Assembly (NCBI GenBank): GCA_024640085.1
Contig: JAHEFR010000027.1
Coordinates: 1-36,339, forward strand
Source: Gammaproteobacteria bacterium
GTDB taxonomy: Bacteria; Pseudomonadota; Gammaproteobacteria; Steroidobacterales; XN24
DNA: 36,339 bases
Reading direction: 5' to 3'
The position numbers and the translations under genes are program-made. The notes beneath the pieces were generated by a model. The model searched no databases, was not told where the DNA came from, and was given only the letters and a program-made list of their open reading frames with translations. Of the stretch, positions 4,678 through 36,339 are shown piece by piece; within the stretch, counting starts at the first letter, position 1; every line of letters starts with the position of its first letter.

Positions 4678-5157
4678 ATGACGAGCAAGAAGGCACCAGC
4701 AAAGAAGACCACTTCCAGGAAGAAGGCTTCAAAGAAGAAGCCGACTTTGAAACAGAAGCTCCAGGCCATGGAGAAGTCCGTGGAGAAGGGCGCCGCGGAT
4801 CTGGGGCGTCGGGTGAAGGCCGAGATGCCCGCAGTCAAGGCCAGGGCCAAAAAGGCGGGCAAGGCCGTGGCCAAGAAGGCAGCCGAGGTCGAGGCCGCGA
4901 TCGAGAAGGAGGTCAAGAAAGACGTGGCCAAGGTGAAGCAGAGAATGGCAGCAAGGAAGAAGGCTACGGCCAAGAAGAAACCGGCGGCCAAGAAGAAGGC
5001 TGCCACAACGAAGAAAGCTGCGACAAAGAAGAAAGCGGCGGCAAGCAAGAAACCGGCGGCCCGGCGCAAGCCCGCTGCGAGGAAGGCAACCGCCAGGCGT
5101 CCTTCGGCGAAAAAGAAAGCCGCGGCGCGCAGGAAGCCTGCAGGCAAGAAGAAGTAA
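4678..5157 (+). CDS. Histone H1-like Lys/Ala-rich DNA-binding protein
   Basis: The 159-residue product is dominated by Lys and Ala with Arg near the end. Residues about 25-95 are a mixed, helix-prone region (QKLQAMEKSVEKGA and following). Residues 95-159 are a repetitive KKPAAKKKAA-type tail like that of AlgP and other bacterial H1-like proteins. Such proteins bind DNA through the basic tail and affect nucleoid compaction or transcription; a function here is inferred from composition only. GGGAG lies six bases upstream of the ATG. A perfect 11-bp hairpin follows the stop. The gene appears monocistronic. Confidence 0.8.
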   Translation: MTSKKAPAKKTTSRKKASKKKPTLKQKLQAMEKSVEKGAADLGRRVKAEMPAVKARAKKAGKAVAKKAAEVEAAIEKEVKKDVAKVKQRMAARKKATAKKKPAAKKKAATTKKAATKKKAAASKKPAARRKPAARKATARRPSAKKKAAARRKPAGKKK

Positions 5158-30391: not shown

Positions 30392-31843
30392 TCATGCTGT
30401 CGCGGCGGCGATGGTCGGATCGATGGCCGGCCGCGTCTCACCCTTGCCGATGGTGACAAGGTCCCACAGGAGAAGGACGACGCCGATCATGGTCATGACG
30501 CCGAACAGCATCCTCCAGTGCATACCTTGCATGAACCATGGCGTGGCCTGGGCAGAGAAGTAAGCCGCCCAGGTGGAGCCGCCCAGGGCGCGCTCGACGA
30601 AGGACTGCTCGTAGCCCGAGATCAGCAGGGCTACGGTCATGCCGACGACGCCCAGATTGAGCAAGCCAAGGGACCATTTCCATTTCCAGCCGTTATCCGG
30701 CAGATCCGCCGACATCCAGACGTCACCCCGCCACTTTTGCACCGCGATATAGATCATGGCGATGATGATAGTGGCATAGGCGCCGAAGAATGCCAGGTGG
30801 CCGTGGGAGGCCGACCACTGTGTGCCGTGGGTGTAGAGGTTGATCTGGGGAAGAGTGTGCATGAATCCCCAGACGCCCGCGCCGAAGAAATTGCCGAACG
30901 CGTGGGCGATCAGCCAGGCCAGGGCCGGGTGATTCGAATTGCGGAAATTATGCCTGCCGGAGTCGTAGACGGCGTGCACGACCATGGCTACCAGCGGGAT
31001 CGGTTCGAGAGCGGAGAAGAAACCGCCGATGCTCAGCCAGTATTCCGGCGTCCCGATCCAGAAGTAGTGGTGACCGAGGCCCAGGATGCCGGAGCCGAAC
31101 ATCAACGCCACCTCGATATAGAGCCAGGTGGTGACGATCTTCCGACGCGCGCCGAGGGTCTTCATCAGGCCCCAGGCCATGATGCAGCCCACCAGGACCT
31201 CCCAGGTAGCCTCTACCCAGAGGTGGATCACCCACCACCACCAGTACTGGTCCACCGAAATGTTGGTGGTGTAAAACATGCCCGCCAGGTACAGCCCGGC
31301 CAGCGCGACCAGGTCCAGCACCAGCACGCCGGAGATGCCGCTCCATTTGCCCTTCATGAATGTGGCTGCGACGTTGTAGAAGAAGATCAGCACGCACACG
31401 ACGATGCCGATATCCGCCCAGCGCGGTGCCTCGATGTACTCTCGGCCCTCGTTGATCAGCCACAGAGTTTCCTTCGTGCCTGGCCCGGTCTGGACGAAGA
31501 GATAGACCACGACGACGATCGCTACGGCGATGGTCAGGATCCAGAAGTTCAGGTTGGCCAGCTTGGCGCCGACAAGCTCGGTGCCGCTCTCTTCCTCCAC
31601 CAGCCAGTAGACCGAGCCGATGAACCCGTAGAGCATCCACACGACCATGGCGTTGATGTGCACCATCCGGTTCACGTTGAAATCGAGGATGTTGTAAAGG
31701 AAGTCCGGCATGATGAACTGCAGGCCCGCCAGCAGGCCGAAGAGGCACTGGGCGAGGAACAGGATCATGGCGACGGCGAAGTATTTCACCGCGACTTTCT
31801 GGCCGGAATTCAGGTTGGCGCTGTTGAATGCTGCGACGTTCAT
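30392..31843 (-). CDS. norB: Nitric oxide reductase large subunit (cNOR)
   Basis: The 483-residue, roughly twelve-helix product carries every key residue: H62 and H349 for low-spin haem b, H347 for haem b3, H207, H258 and H259 for the non-haem FeB, plus E211 and E280. Most of these fall at the numbering known for the Pseudomonas aeruginosa enzyme. It reduces two NO to N2O at the cytoplasmic membrane using electrons from NorC. No quinol-oxidising N-terminal extension is present, so it is the cytochrome-c type. The ATG at 31843 overlaps the norC stop (ATGA) and has GGAGG eight bases upstream; the frame is open further upstream into norC. Confidence 0.96.
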   Translation of the reverse strand: MNVAAFNSANLNSGQKVAVKYFAVAMILFLAQCLFGLLAGLQFIMPDFLYNILDFNVNRMVHINAMVVWMLYGFIGSVYWLVEEESGTELVGAKLANLNFWILTIAVAIVVVVYLFVQTGPGTKETLWLINEGREYIEAPRWADIGIVVCVLIFFYNVAATFMKGKWSGISGVLVLDLVALAGLYLAGMFYTTNISVDQYWWWWVIHLWVEATWEVLVGCIMAWGLMKTLGARRKIVTTWLYIEVALMFGSGILGLGHHYFWIGTPEYWLSIGGFFSALEPIPLVAMVVHAVYDSGRHNFRNSNHPALAWLIAHAFGNFFGAGVWGFMHTLPQINLYTHGTQWSASHGHLAFFGAYATIIIAMIYIAVQKWRGDVWMSADLPDNGWKWKWSLGLLNLGVVGMTVALLISGYEQSFVERALGGSTWAAYFSAQATPWFMQGMHWRMLFGVMTMIGVVLLLWDLVTIGKGETRPAIDPTIAAATA

Positions 31844-32442
31844 GACGCGTCCTCCTGCCGGATCGGGGTGAAGCCCTTCGGGAAGCCGTTGGTGTCGATG
31901 GACGACATCCACTTGAGGAAGGCGACCACGCCCCTGGCTTCGTCTTCGGTGATGCCCAGCTGAGGCATCCGCCGACCCGTGCCATAGGTGCGCGCGTTGG
32001 CCGTCGGATCCATCAGGAAGCTGACCATCAGCTGCTCACGGACCGATTCGGCGCCCCAGGCCGGGTCCAGCCAGGCCTTGGTGAGGTCGGGCGCGTAGTA
32101 GGCACCGTTGCCGAGCAGCGTGTGGCAGTTCATGCAGTTCTTGGCCTGCACGGTGAGCTTGCCCAGCGTCACCAGATCTTCGGCTTCCTGGGGGCTCAGC
32201 GCCTTGCCGAACAAGGGCGCATCGCCGCCGATCACCGGCTCCTGCATGTTCCGCTCTGCGTTGTAGGTGTAATAGATCCGCTTGTTGATCACGTCGTAGC
32301 CCGGGACCCGCTTGGAACCGGCGGTGATCGTCGCCACGGAGTCGAAGGTCAGGAAGATCAGGACCACCGCCATGATCGCGGTAACCCAGATCGCCCATTT
32401 GCGCCAGACGTCTTCGCTGGCCCACCAGGGTGTGTCTGCCAT
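31840..32442 (-). CDS. norC: Nitric oxide reductase cytochrome c subunit, long form
   Basis: The 200-residue product has one N-terminal membrane helix (about 15-33), the haem motif CMNCH at 103-107 followed by TLLGNGAYYAPDL, and MPQLGITEDEA with the Met ligand, then FLKWMSSIDTNGFP, all typical of NorC. The usual length is about 146-150 residues with CxxCH near residue 61. Here about 40 extra residues lie between the helix and the haem motif (about 45-95). NorC receives electrons from periplasmic cytochrome c and passes them to NorB. GGGAGG precedes the ATG. Translationally coupled to norB. Confidence 0.93.
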   Translation of the reverse strand: MADTPWWASEDVWRKWAIWVTAIMAVVLIFLTFDSVATITAGSKRVPGYDVINKRIYYTYNAERNMQEPVIGGDAPLFGKALSPQEAEDLVTLGKLTVQAKNCMNCHTLLGNGAYYAPDLTKAWLDPAWGAESVREQLMVSFLMDPTANARTYGTGRRMPQLGITEDEARGVVAFLKWMSSIDTNGFPKGFTPIRQEDAS

Positions 32443-32480: not shown

Positions 32481-32792
32481 TCAGCCGGTGTGGGCTTCCG
32501 ATACATGGGTGCCGGCGCACAGGTGCCATATCAGGCGTGGCGCCACGAAGTATCCAATCACCATCACGGCGGCGATGACCTGCCAGAAGCCGGTCAGGTT
32601 CAGAGTCGTCGACAACACCCAGACGGCGCCGATCAGGATGGCGTAGGCCGTATAGGCCCATAACATCAGCCCGGGGCGCTGCTGCAGACGCGACAGGGCG
32701 AAAAGCAGCGCGTAGACGGCGCCGAACAGGATGATGAGGGCGCCGGCGATGGCCGCCGCCATGATGTGCTGGGTGGCTACCGGATCGATCAT
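32481..32792 (-). CDS. Three-helix membrane protein of the nor operon
   Basis: The 103-residue product has three hydrophobic helices at about 8-32, 43-62 and 68-90 and a His-containing tail (HLCAGTHVSEAHTG). The ATG at 32792 has GGGAG seven bases upstream; the 38 bp to norC indicate one transcript. Its position is like that of accessory NorE/NorF proteins, but it does not clearly match either. It could help assemble or stabilise NO reductase; that is inference from place only. Confidence 0.7.
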   Translation of the reverse strand: MIDPVATQHIMAAAIAGALIILFGAVYALLFALSRLQQRPGLMLWAYTAYAILIGAVWVLSTTLNLTGFWQVIAAVMVIGYFVAPRLIWHLCAGTHVSEAHTG

Positions 32793-33019
32793 TGGGTTCT
32801 CCCGATTGACTGGCAGGCTGGGTGGCCCAAGCGAAAAAGAGCCCGCATGCGCCCGGTTCGGAGAAGCTCTCTGAGCCCCGCCGCCCGGGAGGGGGTCCCG
32901 CCATCGGTCGGGGACCGGGCGACGGTGGTCTCGTGGCCGTGGCCGAGGGAGGCGCAACGAAGTCGCGACGGGCCACGACGCCGGCGACGGGACGTTTTCC
33001 TGTTGTGGATCGGACGCAT
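32789..33019 (-). CDS. Possible leader reading frame, 76 codons
   Basis: Downstream of the predicted nor promoter, an ATG at 33019 with GAGG seven bases upstream opens a frame ending in TGA that overlaps the ATG of the membrane protein (ATGA). The product is Arg-rich (HNRKTSRRRRRGPSR), which is also what chance frames look like in this GC-rich DNA. The two translation signals are the only reason to list it. If real it would couple translation of the nor operon to a leader peptide. Confidence 0.25.
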   Translation of the reverse strand: MRPIHNRKTSRRRRRGPSRLRCASLGHGHETTVARSPTDGGTPSRAAGLRELLRTGRMRALFRLGHPACQSIGRTQ

Positions 33020-33038: not shown

Positions 33039-33086
33039 GATGCATCAAGCATACTCCATTAAAGATGCATCATCAATACATATATG
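33039..33086 (-). promoter_or_regulatory. nor promoter with two NsrR-type boxes
   Basis: On the minus strand TTGATG (33071-33076), 17 bp, TATGCT (33048-33053) form a promoter. Two GATGCAT-containing 23-bp half-palindromic sites start 25 bp apart (33037 and 33062), the second of 11-1-11 form AAGATGCATCA/CAATACATATA. The module matches 33939-33986 at 34 of 48 positions. The GATGCAT core fits the NsrR consensus of gammaproteobacteria. The leader to the membrane-protein gene is about 250 nt. Confidence 0.7.
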
Positions 33087-33483: not shown

Positions 33484-33918
33484 TCAGGCGGGAATCTTGA
33501 GTTTCTTGCGGAGCTTGAGTCTCGGCTTGACGAGATCCGCGATTGAGTAGCGATCCAGGATCGCCATGAACTCGTCCAGGGCGTGGCCGAAAACGCCCGA
33601 GAGGACACAATCCGGGGTGATGATGCACTGGTTGTCCTGGCGGAAGCACTCCACCAGGGCGATGTCGTCCTCGCACCTGCGCACGACCTCGCCGACTGTG
33701 ATGTCTTCCGCGGGACGCGCGAGGATGAGGCCGCCGTTGACGCCCCGTGACGCTTCCACCAGTTCGGCCCGGGTCAGCTTGTTGACCACCTTCATCAGGT
33801 GATTGCGGGAGATGCCGTAACCGTCGGCCACGTCCCTGATCCTGACCCTTCGATCCGGTTCCAGCGCCAGGTACATCAGGACTCTCAGGGCGTAGTCAGT
33901 GAAGACGGTCAATCGCAT
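33484..33918 (-). CDS. nsrR: NO-sensing Rrf2-family repressor
   Basis: The 144-residue product has the Rrf2 winged helix (MRLTVFTDYALRVLMYLA, then ISRNHLMKVVNKL) and three cysteines C91, C98, C104 spaced as the [Fe-S] ligands of NsrR. NsrR represses NO-detoxifying genes and releases DNA when NO attacks the cluster. AAGGA lies upstream of the ATG. The promoter carries two boxes like those of the nor promoter, so autoregulation is expected. IscR and RirA differ in cysteine spacing. It shares its upstream region with the divergent TonB-dependent receptor. Confidence 0.92.
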   Translation of the reverse strand: MRLTVFTDYALRVLMYLALEPDRRVRIRDVADGYGISRNHLMKVVNKLTRAELVEASRGVNGGLILARPAEDITVGEVVRRCEDDIALVECFRQDNQCIITPDCVLSGVFGHALDEFMAILDRYSIADLVKPRLKLRKKLKIPA

Positions 33919-33936
33919 GGCTCACGGTCCTTGCAA

Positions 33937-33986
33937 AAGATGCATTGATAATACACAATTAAAGATGTACAAACAATGCATCAATA
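33937..33986. promoter_or_regulatory. Divergent nsrR/receptor control region with NsrR-type boxes
   Basis: Two 23-bp sites of 11-1-11 form begin at 33937 (AAGATGCATTG/TAATACACAAT) and 33962 (AAGATGTACAA/CAATGCATCAA). For nsrR, TTGTTT (33971-33976), 17 bp, TATTAT (33948-33953) on the minus strand. For the receptor, TTGATA (33945-33950), 17 bp, TACAAA (33968-33973) on the plus strand. The boxes cover both promoters. 33939-33986 aligns with 33039-33086 at 34 of 48 bases. Confidence 0.7.
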
Positions 33987-34008
33987 ACAGGGGGCTCGAC
34001 GGACCCCT

Positions 34009-36270
34009 GTGGACAACGCGCAGATGGTGGCGGGAGACAGCGGAACGATTCGCTTCGGCGGGCCTTGCCGGGAAAGCCAGGGGCCCGGTCAAACCGGCTG
34101 TGTGGCGCTGCTGATCCTGTCTGCCCTTATCTCGCTCTCAGCCGCCGCCGCTAACTCCGCGGGGGCGTCAGAAGGCAGCGTGGTCGTCCTGGAGCCGGTG
34201 GTGACCGTGGCGACCCGCGAGACCCGGCCGCTGAAGGAGGTTGCCGGTACGGTCACCGTGTTGACCAGGGAAGACCTCGACCAGAGCCTGACGACGTCCC
34301 TGGACCAGGTCTTCAGATACACGCCGGGCATCGATGCCACGACCACCGGCACGCGTTTCGGCACCGAGGGCTTGATTATCCGCGGCATCGGCGGCAACCG
34401 GGTGGCGATGGAACTGGACGGCGTGCCCCTGTCCCAGCAGTTTGCCGTCGGCAATTTCTCGAATGCGACCCGCGACCTGGTCGACGTGGGCCTGATCGAG
34501 CGGATCGAGGTGCTCCACGGGCCGGCGTCGGCGCTGTACGGAAGTTCCGCCCTGGGAGGCGTGGTCTCGATGACGACGCCTGACCCCGGGGCGATGGCAA
34601 CGTCCGCGGACGGCAGCGGACTGTTGCTTTCCCAGGGGCTGCAGTCCTCGGACGACAGCCTGCACACGGTCGGGGCGGTCACTGGCGGGACGGGCAGGCT
34701 CGCCGGCCTCGGGATGATCGGCGTGCGCTCCGGGCACCAACAGGAGGCCAAGGCCGCCGACGAACCCGATCACCGGGATTTCGACAACCGGTCGGGCTTG
34801 GCCAAGCTGGCATTCGACACCGCCGCCGGTCATCGGCTGAGCAGTCTCTACTATCACCACGATTCCAACGTCCAGACAGACCTTCAGTCGGTCCTCGGCA
34901 GCGGCCGATTCCGGTCGACCACGCTGCTGGAAGGAGACGACCGGTACAGGCTGGACCTGCTGGCCGGATCGCTGGAACTGGCCCCGTCCCGGCTCATCGA
35001 CGGCGGGGTGCTCCGACTCTGGTCCGAGACCACGGACATCCGCCAGGACACGGTGGACGAGCGCACGGCGGCGGCGCGCCCCGTGAGCATCGACCGGCGC
35101 TTCGCCTACCAGCAGGACACCGCCGGCGCGTCCTCCGACCTCCGTCGCACCGTCCTCCTGGCAGGCCTGGATCACCAGTTTTCTCTTGGTGCCGAGTGGA
35201 CCGCGAGCCGCATGAAGGAGACCCGCGACGGCTCGGAGACCGGGCTGGATGACGGACAGATCTCCGACACCGTGCTCGGGGAGACATTCCCACTGCGGGA
35301 TTTCCCGGTCACGGACGTGGACGAGATCGGGGTCTATGTGCATGACGAGGTGGACCTCGGCAGGGTGCGGCTGATCGCCGGCATCCGCTATGACCGATAC
35401 GATCTGGATCCGGATCCGGACGCCGTCTACCGGGAGGATAACCCCGAGACGGAGGTCGTCGGCATCACCGACGACCAGTTCTCCCCGAAGCTGGGTCTGG
35501 TCTACCAGTTCTCGCAGGCTGTAGACGGCTGGCTGCAATACGCCCACGGATTCCGCGTTCCGTCATTCGAGGACGCCAACATCGGCCTGGACATCCCCAT
35601 GTTCAACATCCGGGCGATCCCCAATCCAGACCTGAAGCCGGAGACCTCGGACGGCGTCGAGGCCGGCCTGAGATGGCGCGCTCAAGCGGTGCGGGTGAAC
35701 GCCAGCCTGTTCTACACCCGTTACGACGACTTTATCGAAACGAAAGTCCCGCTGGGCATGGATCCCGAAAGCGGACGGCTGCTATTCCAGTCCCAGAACA
35801 TCGATCAGGCGTGGATATACGGCGCAGAGGTCGCCGCCGAGGTGTCCCTCGATGCCTGGTTGCGGGGGACCAGTCTTAGCGCGGCGGCGTACTGGGCGCG
35901 GGGCGACAACCGGGAGACCGACGAACCACTGAATTCCGTCGGGCCGGCGCAGGCGGTGCTCGCTGTCGGCTGGATGAGCCATAGCGGGAGAACCGAGGCC
36001 ACGCTGGTGGGGACCTTCACCCGGCGCAACTCAAGGCTGGACGAGAGCCGTGGCGAATTGTTCGAAGCCCCGGGATACGCGGTCTTCGACCTGTTCCTCT
36101 CGCAACGGTGGGGACGGCACCTGATGGCGCGGGCCGGCATCGAGAACCTGCTGGACCGAACTTACTGGCGATGGGCAGACGTCCGCGGTTTCGCTCCTGA
36201 CGACCCGGTCGTGCCGCTTTTGAGCCAGCCGGGCCGGAGCGTCTCCATGGACCTGAGATGGATTTTTTGA
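34009..36270 (+). CDS. TonB-dependent outer-membrane receptor, haem/haemoprotein type
   Basis: The 753-residue product has a late hydrophobic signal core (about 32-48, VALLILSALISLSAAAAN), a TonB-box-like EPVVTVA near residue 60, and a plug domain with VTVLTREDLDQ, GTEGLIIRGIGGNRVAMELDGVPL and EVLHGPASALYGSSALGGVV. The beta-barrel ends with the terminal aromatic LRWIF. The plug motif IRGxxGNRVxMxxDGxxL is frequent in haem and haemoglobin receptors; the substrate is not proven. The GTG at 34009 has a poor ribosome-binding site and an ATG at 34024 is an alternative, so the start is uncertain. Its promoter overlaps the NsrR boxes. A further gene follows after 55 bp. Confidence 0.85.
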   Translation: MDNAQMVAGDSGTIRFGGPCRESQGPGQTGCVALLILSALISLSAAAANSAGASEGSVVVLEPVVTVATRETRPLKEVAGTVTVLTREDLDQSLTTSLDQVFRYTPGIDATTTGTRFGTEGLIIRGIGGNRVAMELDGVPLSQQFAVGNFSNATRDLVDVGLIERIEVLHGPASALYGSSALGGVVSMTTPDPGAMATSADGSGLLLSQGLQSSDDSLHTVGAVTGGTGRLAGLGMIGVRSGHQQEAKAADEPDHRDFDNRSGLAKLAFDTAAGHRLSSLYYHHDSNVQTDLQSVLGSGRFRSTTLLEGDDRYRLDLLAGSLELAPSRLIDGGVLRLWSETTDIRQDTVDERTAAARPVSIDRRFAYQQDTAGASSDLRRTVLLAGLDHQFSLGAEWTASRMKETRDGSETGLDDGQISDTVLGETFPLRDFPVTDVDEIGVYVHDEVDLGRVRLIAGIRYDRYDLDPDPDAVYREDNPETEVVGITDDQFSPKLGLVYQFSQAVDGWLQYAHGFRVPSFEDANIGLDIPMFNIRAIPNPDLKPETSDGVEAGLRWRAQAVRVNASLFYTRYDDFIETKVPLGMDPESGRLLFQSQNIDQAWIYGAEVAAEVSLDAWLRGTSLSAAAYWARGDNRETDEPLNSVGPAQAVLAVGWMSHSGRTEATLVGTFTRRNSRLDESRGELFEAPGYAVFDLFLSQRWGRHLMARAGIENLLDRTYWRWADVRGFAPDDPVVPLLSQPGRSVSMDLRWIF

Positions 36271-36325
36271 TCGACCGCGAAAACGCCGGCAAGCGGCGGG
36301 ACGCGATCGAAGGGAGGTAATCGTG

Positions 36326-36339
36326 ATGATTCGGAAACT
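36326..36339 (+). CDS. Start of a gene running off the window
   Basis: GGAGG eight bases before an ATG (GTG at 36323 is in frame) opens MIRK- and is cut by the window end. It lies 55 bp after the TonB-dependent receptor in the same direction, so it is probably co-transcribed with it. Nothing can be said about its function. Confidence 0.55.

Follow-up and report, generated by a model that had tools for sequence, protein, structure and literature searches.

The nirS gene, which encodes the periplasmic cd1 nitrite reductase NirS, is a common marker gene for denitrification. In Pseudomonas aeruginosa, maturation of NirS is aided by NirF and NirN. According to passages in PMC3694632, haem d1 reaches NirS in the periplasm, NirS carrying dihydro-haem d1 has about 50% activity in vitro, and deletion of nirN lowers NirS activity without abolishing it. 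A form with two cytochrome c domains ahead of the d1 domain, C1-C2-NirS, is called unique to Chloroflexi in PMC8756737. The nitric oxide (NO)-responsive repressor NsrR is described as binding 11-1-11 repeats in Escherichia coli, such as AAGATGCATTTAAAATGCATCTT at ytfE (PMC5320621). Here, we analyze a stretch of 36,339 nucleotides (hereafter, the window) from a gammaproteobacterium of the lineage Steroidobacterales; XN24 (contig JAHEFR010000027.1 of assembly GCA_024640085.1), and in particular a gene near its end for a TonB-dependent outer-membrane receptor. This receptor belongs to a clade whose genes lie beside nirS, in genomes that mostly lack the known genes for haem d1 synthesis. Based on this genomic association, we consider it fairly probable that the receptor is induced by NO and imports haem d1, or dihydro-haem d1, for use by NirS in the periplasm.

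An initial annotation of the window described the protein as a haem-type TonB receptor, and membership of this family is supported. The receptor has the Plug (PF07715) and barrel (PF00593) domains of TonB-dependent receptors and scores above the cut-offs of both haem/haemoglobin receptor models, with 331.2 bits for TIGR01785 (cut-off 316.85) and 331.3 bits for TIGR01786 (cut-off 323.75). The receptors of relatives straddle these cut-offs (314.0/316.0 bits in L037, 324.8/318.1 in L039, 287.4/282.5 in L056 and 303.9/345.3 in L079). The closest solved relative by sequence is P. aeruginosa PhuR (8the; 283 bits), which also has the closest solved fold to the AlphaFold2 model of the receptor (pLDDT 82.6, pTM 0.84), with TM-scores of 0.83/0.87 at 29% identity; ChuA/ShuA are also among the best solved relatives. 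A copper receptor of the NosA/OprC type was considered and rejected: OprC is among the fold matches, but PhuR and ChuA/ShuA rank higher, and the TIGR01778 score is 70 bits against a cut-off of 472.

The receptor differs from PhuR at the residues that we take to be the haem ligands of PhuR, His124 in the plug and Tyr519 in a loop, which align with Thr154 and Asn524. We compared these columns in 100 distinct receptors (5 of 105 rows were removed as duplicates with identical last 300 residues), counting the receptor of the window as NirS-linked by inference here and in the trees below. His occupies the His124 column in three receptors, every one outside the NirS clade, and the linked rows mostly have Thr or Gly. 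The Tyr519 column is Asn in all 58 NirS-linked rows; Tyr is found there in none of them and in 14 of the 42 rows labelled unlinked, which include three (L110, L126, L128) that sit within the NirS clade. A Tyr just before the NPDL motif is present in 40 of 41 rows labelled unlinked (one row with a gap excluded) and in 23 of 58 linked rows. The protein is a haem-type receptor by family and fold, changed at the presumed ligand positions of PhuR.

The main alternative to a haem d1 importer is that the receptor brings in ordinary haem under NO control, either to meet the haem demand of denitrification (NirS haem c, NorBC, globin) or to provide iron when iron proteins are damaged by NO. The initial annotation had favoured this purpose, naming NO reductase, cytochrome c and truncated haemoglobin as the consumers. 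The scores against both haem/haemoglobin models, the rank of PhuR and ChuA/ShuA, the Tyr that persists before NPDL in some linked rows, and the presence of norCB, cytochrome c and a truncated globin close by are all in its favour. Against it stand the columns just described and the evidence presented below: the constant neighbour of the receptor is nirS, whereas norB adjoins it in only some loci, and the co-occurrence with loss of the d1 pathway is left unexplained. We consider ordinary haem an unlikely substrate, and haem for these consumers is not the best account of the gene.

The neighbour in question was overlooked in the initial annotation. The window is an entire contig and stops four codons into the next gene (Table 1). 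In G001, a genome of the same genus, the next gene starts with ATG ATT AGG AAA behind GGGAGG and encodes a protein in which two cytochrome c domains are joined to a cytochrome d1 domain. In all 20 loci that were fetched from relatives, tblastn placed NirS immediately after the receptor. The protein of G089 matches P. aeruginosa NirS with 878 bits. H235, M272, H366, H511, H553, R340, R382 and R556 are invariant in the NirS of 25 relatives; in the alignment with P. aeruginosa they are the equivalents of the haem c ligands His51/Met88, the d1 ligand His182, the catalytic His327/His369 and Arg156/Arg198/Arg372 at the d1 side chains, roles given in the portions of the published accounts that cover these residues. 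Because the haem c and d1 residues are invariant, the gene of the relatives is by its predicted residues a bona fide nirS with one additional cytochrome c domain, encoding a cd1 nitrite reductase with an intact d1 site. The start of the next gene in the window suggests that nirS would follow the receptor in this organism as well.

The architecture of two cytochrome c domains with NirS is common in these Gammaproteobacteria (L038-L056, L061-L080) and is similar in layout to the Chloroflexi form. An Alginate_exp-type outer-membrane protein is encoded near cc-NirS in 13 of the 20 loci L037-L056 (e.g. L039:13333-14556), as well as in L061, L071-L073 and, by eye, L074; the match was scanned with Pfam in L039, L061 and L071. 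This protein also occurs near NirS where no TonB receptor was noticed beside NirS. It might offer nitrite or the cofactor another way in.

Linkage of the receptor to nirS extends well beyond the close relatives. NirS is within the locus in 38 of the 80 named loci, which are the best 80 of 568 confirmed loci, outgroup included. All four arrangements occur among 62 loci that have both genes, duplicates included: receptor first (38), NirS first (12), divergent (8) and convergent (4). In a first tree of the 100 distinct receptors, the linked receptors form one clade of 61 (SH-aLRT 99). A larger tree of 115 rows, to which weaker receptor hits of the relatives were added (ten outside the clade, L184-L193, and L025, L194 and L030 inside), again has one clade, of 66 (SH-aLRT 100). 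NirS is part of the locus in 60 of these rows and, by inference, in the window; the other five have no NirS in the locus. Two of the five (L126, L128) are on cut contigs of genomes that hold NirS or a NirS fragment, and for two more (L110, L025) NirS is encoded at another place in the genome. No locus among the 49 rows outside the clade includes NirS. Several isolates belong to the clade, among them Marinicella litoralis, two Wenzhouxiangella, three Pseudidiomarina and Arenimonas malthae. Arenimonas fontis enters the clade through its second receptor, which adjoins its NirS; eight Lysobacteraceae receptors fall outside, and NirS is found in two of their eight genomes.

In five genomes (G112, G067, G108, G073, G090), the clade receptor adjoining NirS is accompanied by another receptor that is unlinked, lies outside the clade and has Tyr before NPDL, as would be expected if haem and the NirS cofactor use separate doors. 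The second receptor could serve haem, which is a further point against ordinary haem as the substrate of the clade. A group of such Tyr-bearing second receptors is seen in the f7 family (L184-L187 of G112, G067, G108 and G073, with L189 of G120), unlinked to NirS and outside the clade; these are possibly ordinary haem receptors.

Alternatively, the association could be regulatory hitch-hiking, in which a general iron or metal receptor has settled in a denitrification operon with no role in cofactor supply. The receptor family does resemble siderophore and copper receptors, at lower scores. We nevertheless regard this explanation as very improbable, given that a single clade, eight named families, the four arrangements and the close co-occurrence with NirS argue for function, and that in f15 genomes a second TonB-receptor family adjoins the same type of NirS.

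The genomes with an intact NirS mostly lack known d1 synthesis genes. Only 2 of 147 relatives (G052 and G064) have NirJ over the cut-off, and the same two have NirDLGH (PF17805); at a loose E-value 136 of 147 match NirJ, all but two of them far below the cut-off, and only matches over the cut-off were therefore counted. A d1-domain match of at least 430 bits is present in 39 of the 147 relatives and a split match in G001, and 38 of these 40 genomes are without the d1 pathway. Neither NirJ over the cut-off nor PF17805 was found in the genome of the window itself. Among 46 named genomes with a receptor, the d1 match exceeds the cut-off in 40 (as fragments in G172 and G190), and PF17805 is present in one, a Thioalkalivibrio metagenome-assembled genome (MAG; G192); within the clade, the count is 1 of 38 genomes. 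This set was drawn from the best 80 of 568 and excluded L127, L129, L130, L132-L143 and L145-L160, which are outside the clade, and L083, L090 and L105, which are under G handles.

Elsewhere in the phylum, the enzyme and the pathway go together. In a control of 398 genomes, the d1 match reaches at least 430 bits in 36, of which 34 also have PF17805; a threshold of E<=1e-90 gives 48 of 51 (the exceptions are G241, G261 and G556). These tallies were counted by hand, and the 430-bit count was added because some matches at E<=1e-90 may be NirN or NirF. The contrast with the relatives is strong, although shared descent among them means that the genomes are not independent. G064 (L066, L067) has cc-NirS, a canonical-size NirS and d1-pathway genes, with no receptor match adjoining its cc-NirS. 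G556 (L171), a gammaproteobacterium whose genome is given as 100% complete, encodes a NirS of canonical size (574 amino acids) but has no NirDLGH and, in the fetched 20 kb, no match to the receptor.

Absence of the d1 pathway where NirS is intact implies that the cofactor or its source must be unusual. This would also be accommodated if the receptor imported some other tetrapyrrole or a precursor (sirohaem, an intermediate of d1 synthesis, or haem) that a non-homologous route converted to the NirS cofactor, or if NirS used a different haem. We find this rather improbable, as the d1-contact residues named in those portions of the published accounts are retained, and no additional enzyme common to the 20 loci was noticed beside the receptor-nirS pair (the Alginate_exp-type protein being present in 13). 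With nirS behind the receptor in relatives, d1 synthesis missing and the ligand residues changed, haem d1 fits better than haem as the putative ligand of the receptor.

Control by NO, which the initial annotation had also proposed, finds support in a double operator between nsrR and the receptor, whose two boxes start 25 bp apart. The boxes have GATGYA/TRCATC cores with 7-bp spacing and lie upstream of NO genes, as NsrR operators do. In G000 (the assembly of the window), G001 and G004, the double operator occurs exactly twice per genome, always at the norC and receptor promoters, and the reversed pattern does not occur. G001 is of the same genus and G004 of the same family, and conservation across the three genomes is an independent test of the operator. 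The order norB-norC-small gene-nsrR-receptor is maintained in G001 and G004. The double operator is real, and with nsrR and norCB adjacent, control of the receptor by NO through this NsrR-type operator is very likely.

Several weak points attach to this assignment. GATGYA-N7-TRCAYM with at most one mismatch has six matches in 36 kb against 1.08 expected, all at the two nsrR-side promoters (norC and receptor), and none of 100 shuffles reaches six, but this count is partly circular because the pattern was derived from these very sites. The full 23-bp NsrR motif, in the form that we assumed, has no match at up to three mismatches because the outer arms diverge. The possible promoter TTGATA-17-TACAAA, placed under NsrR boxes in the initial annotation, is present and overlapped by both boxes, whereas a sigma-70 consensus scan of 33900-34060 called no promoter; the scan misses it because TACAAA is a poor -10 element. 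Given the weak consensus and the lack of a called promoter, the evidence for the operator is its conservation and placement and not a perfect consensus.

The repressor scores 134.7 bits against the NsrR model and 131.4 bits against the RirA model, each below its cut-off, and its Cys91/98/104 are common to all three species compared. Iron control by RirA was rejected despite the nearly equal score: the operator is of the NsrR type, in the three genomes its paired arrangement recurs only at norC, and norCB is adjacent. An NsrR homologue (54% identity) is convergent behind the NirS-receptor pair in L080 (G047), in another family. Between norC and nsrR, at 32481-32798 (-), the window encodes a small protein with no Pfam or NCBIfam match, which is kept beside norC in G001, G004, G089 and G108.

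To include other lineages, we surveyed 33 upstream regions, that of the window and those of 32 receptor-first loci (out of 38; the partial L103 and five duplicates were omitted), among which L088 has almost no upstream sequence. NsrR boxes are present in three (0.04 expected) and FNR/DNR-type boxes, by a pattern that we assumed, in 12 (0.64 expected). A Crp/Fnr-type gene lies near the receptor on the opposite strand in five f7 loci (the domain was read for L039 only). A trigger of this kind, with NsrR boxes in this family and boxes of the FNR/DNR type in front of the receptor in other lineages, fits the proposed role in haem d1 import.

Taking these observations together, the receptor may be the first gene of an NO-inducible receptor-nirS operon. 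NsrR would occupy the double operator over the divergent nsrR and receptor promoters and its second copy at norC. NO made by denitrifying neighbours, or by the cell itself as it reduces nitrite, would then release NsrR from the DNA, and norCB, nsrR, the receptor and nirS would be switched on together. NirS, a predicted periplasmic cd1 nitrite reductase with an additional cytochrome c domain, would be made in a cell without genes for its haem d1, and the receptor would take up external haem d1 or dihydro-haem d1, powered by TonB, to the periplasm where NirS assembles. Since haem d1 reaches NirS in the periplasm, dihydro-d1 NirS is about half active in vitro and some NirS activity survives the deletion of nirN, uptake across the outer membrane could be enough to provide the cofactor. 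This is in keeping with an operon that pairs the receptor with nirS and includes no transporter for the inner membrane.

A number of observations weigh against import of haem d1 by this receptor. The ligands of PhuR on which the residue comparison relies are presumed ones. The organism's own nirS is off the contig, and because none was found elsewhere in its assembly (G000), its place behind the receptor depends on 14 bases and on the relatives, two of which have flawed copies: nirS of G001 is interrupted by Ns, and in G004 the gene is disrupted by an in-frame TAG and a break in the reading frame. One clade receptor, L030 (G048, on a 3.3-kb contig), is in a genome without a d1 match, and two genomes, G052 and the Thioalkalivibrio MAG G192, have both the d1 pathway and a clade receptor. 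Most of the genomes are MAGs and the sets share descent. NirF and NirN are also missing in most of these genomes, and there may be a d1 pathway of another kind. A different TonB-receptor family adjoins NirS in seven loci of f15 genomes (L063-L065, L068-L070, L072), where it lies upstream of cc-NirS and has siderophore-like scores, below the cut-off in the four scanned; L063-L065 and L068-L070 were recognized by weak tblastn matches and open reading frame (ORF) length, and L063 and L072 were confirmed by Pfam. That other family is also three genes from NirS in G102 (L061). No TonB receptor was seen near NirS in G134, G081, G033, G142, G008 or G556 by tblastn and ORF reading, in which not every neighbour was scanned with Pfam. 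NirS genomes that lack both d1 synthesis and the clade receptor weaken the case that the receptor is required, although the presence of another receptor family next to this enzyme is itself a hint in favour of import.

With these points in mind, we lean slightly toward the view that this is the first recognized outer-membrane importer of haem d1, and that many Gammaproteobacteria are d1 auxotrophs with a complete nitrite reductase gene that live on d1 shed by denitrifiers, the importer being switched on by NO or low oxygen as a sign of denitrification. The groups proposed to have this lifestyle are Woeseiaceae, Wenzhouxiangella, Marinicella, Pseudidiomarina, Kangiella, Arenimonas and others. 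Among the open-licence papers listed by our literature searches, none described uptake of haem d1, auxotrophy for d1 or a TonB receptor adjoining nirS in its title or the opening of its abstract. If many carriers of nirS are unable to make haem d1 and must import it, gene counts would overstate the organisms able to reduce nitrite alone. Denitrification would then be a trade in a shared cofactor, like vitamin B12, of which the importer and its trigger, NO, would now be named. Transcription of Woeseiales nirS in Arctic sediment is described in PMC7451513, and the question may thus bear on a gene that is in use, provided that those nirS belong to the receptor-linked type.

The features of the locus are collected in Table 1. 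Separately, the window has a 159-amino-acid lysine/alanine-rich, histone-H1-like ORF at 4678-5157 (+).

Table 1. Features of the receptor-nsrR-nor region, with positions counted from the first base of the window.
Feature	Position	Strand	Evidence or remarks
TonB-dependent outer-membrane receptor gene, 753 amino acids	34009..36270	+	Haem-receptor superfamily, NirS-linked clade (tree); Pfam Plug and barrel; TIGR01785/01786; PhuR best by sequence and fold
Ribosome-binding site GGGAGG (36312-36317) and ATG ATT CGG AAA (36326-36337) of the next gene (start at 36326-36339), putative nirS	36312..36339	+	nirS start in G001: GGGAGG and ATGATTAGGAAA
NsrR-type box 1, receptor/nsrR double operator	33939..33957	+	GATGCATTGATAATACACA, 0 mismatches to GATGYA-N7-TRCAYM; conserved in G001, G004
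NsrR-type box 2, receptor/nsrR double operator	33964..33982	+ (matches both strands)	GATGTACAAACAATGCATC; conserved
Possible receptor promoter, TTGATA (33945-33950), 17 bp, TACAAA (33968-33973)	33945..33973	+	Read in the sequence; both boxes overlap it
nsrR-like Rrf2 repressor gene, 144 amino acids, divergent from receptor	33484..33918	-	Rrf2 by Pfam; Cys91/98/104
Second copy of the double operator, at the norC promoter	33039..33082	-	Double-pattern search; single boxes too
norC-like cytochrome c subunit of NO reductase	31840..32442	-	Same order in G001, G004, G089
norB, catalytic subunit of NO reductase	30392..31912	-	COX1 superfamily by Pfam; same order in G001, G004, G089

The locus shares parts with several known systems and departs from each. 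Like PhuR of P. aeruginosa (8the), the receptor has a plug, a barrel and FRxP and NPDL motifs; unlike PhuR, it has Thr154 and Asn524 at the presumed ligand sites, NsrR-type operators and, in relatives, nirS as a neighbour. The relatives' NirS is close to the solved enzyme of the P. aeruginosa nirS...nirFDLGHJEN cluster and retains its catalytic and d1-binding residues. In contrast to that cluster, NirJ and NirDLGH are absent from most of the relatives' genomes, a TonB receptor adjoins nirS, and the enzyme has an additional N-terminal cytochrome c domain. With two cytochrome c domains ahead of the d1 domain, it resembles the C1-C2-NirS of Chloroflexi as outlined in PMC8756737. The operators have the GATGYA/TRCATC cores and the spacing of the NsrR regulon as outlined in PMC5320621, with NO-detoxifying norCB as a shared target, but here two tandem boxes stand together and a receptor, with nirS behind it in relatives, is among the targets.

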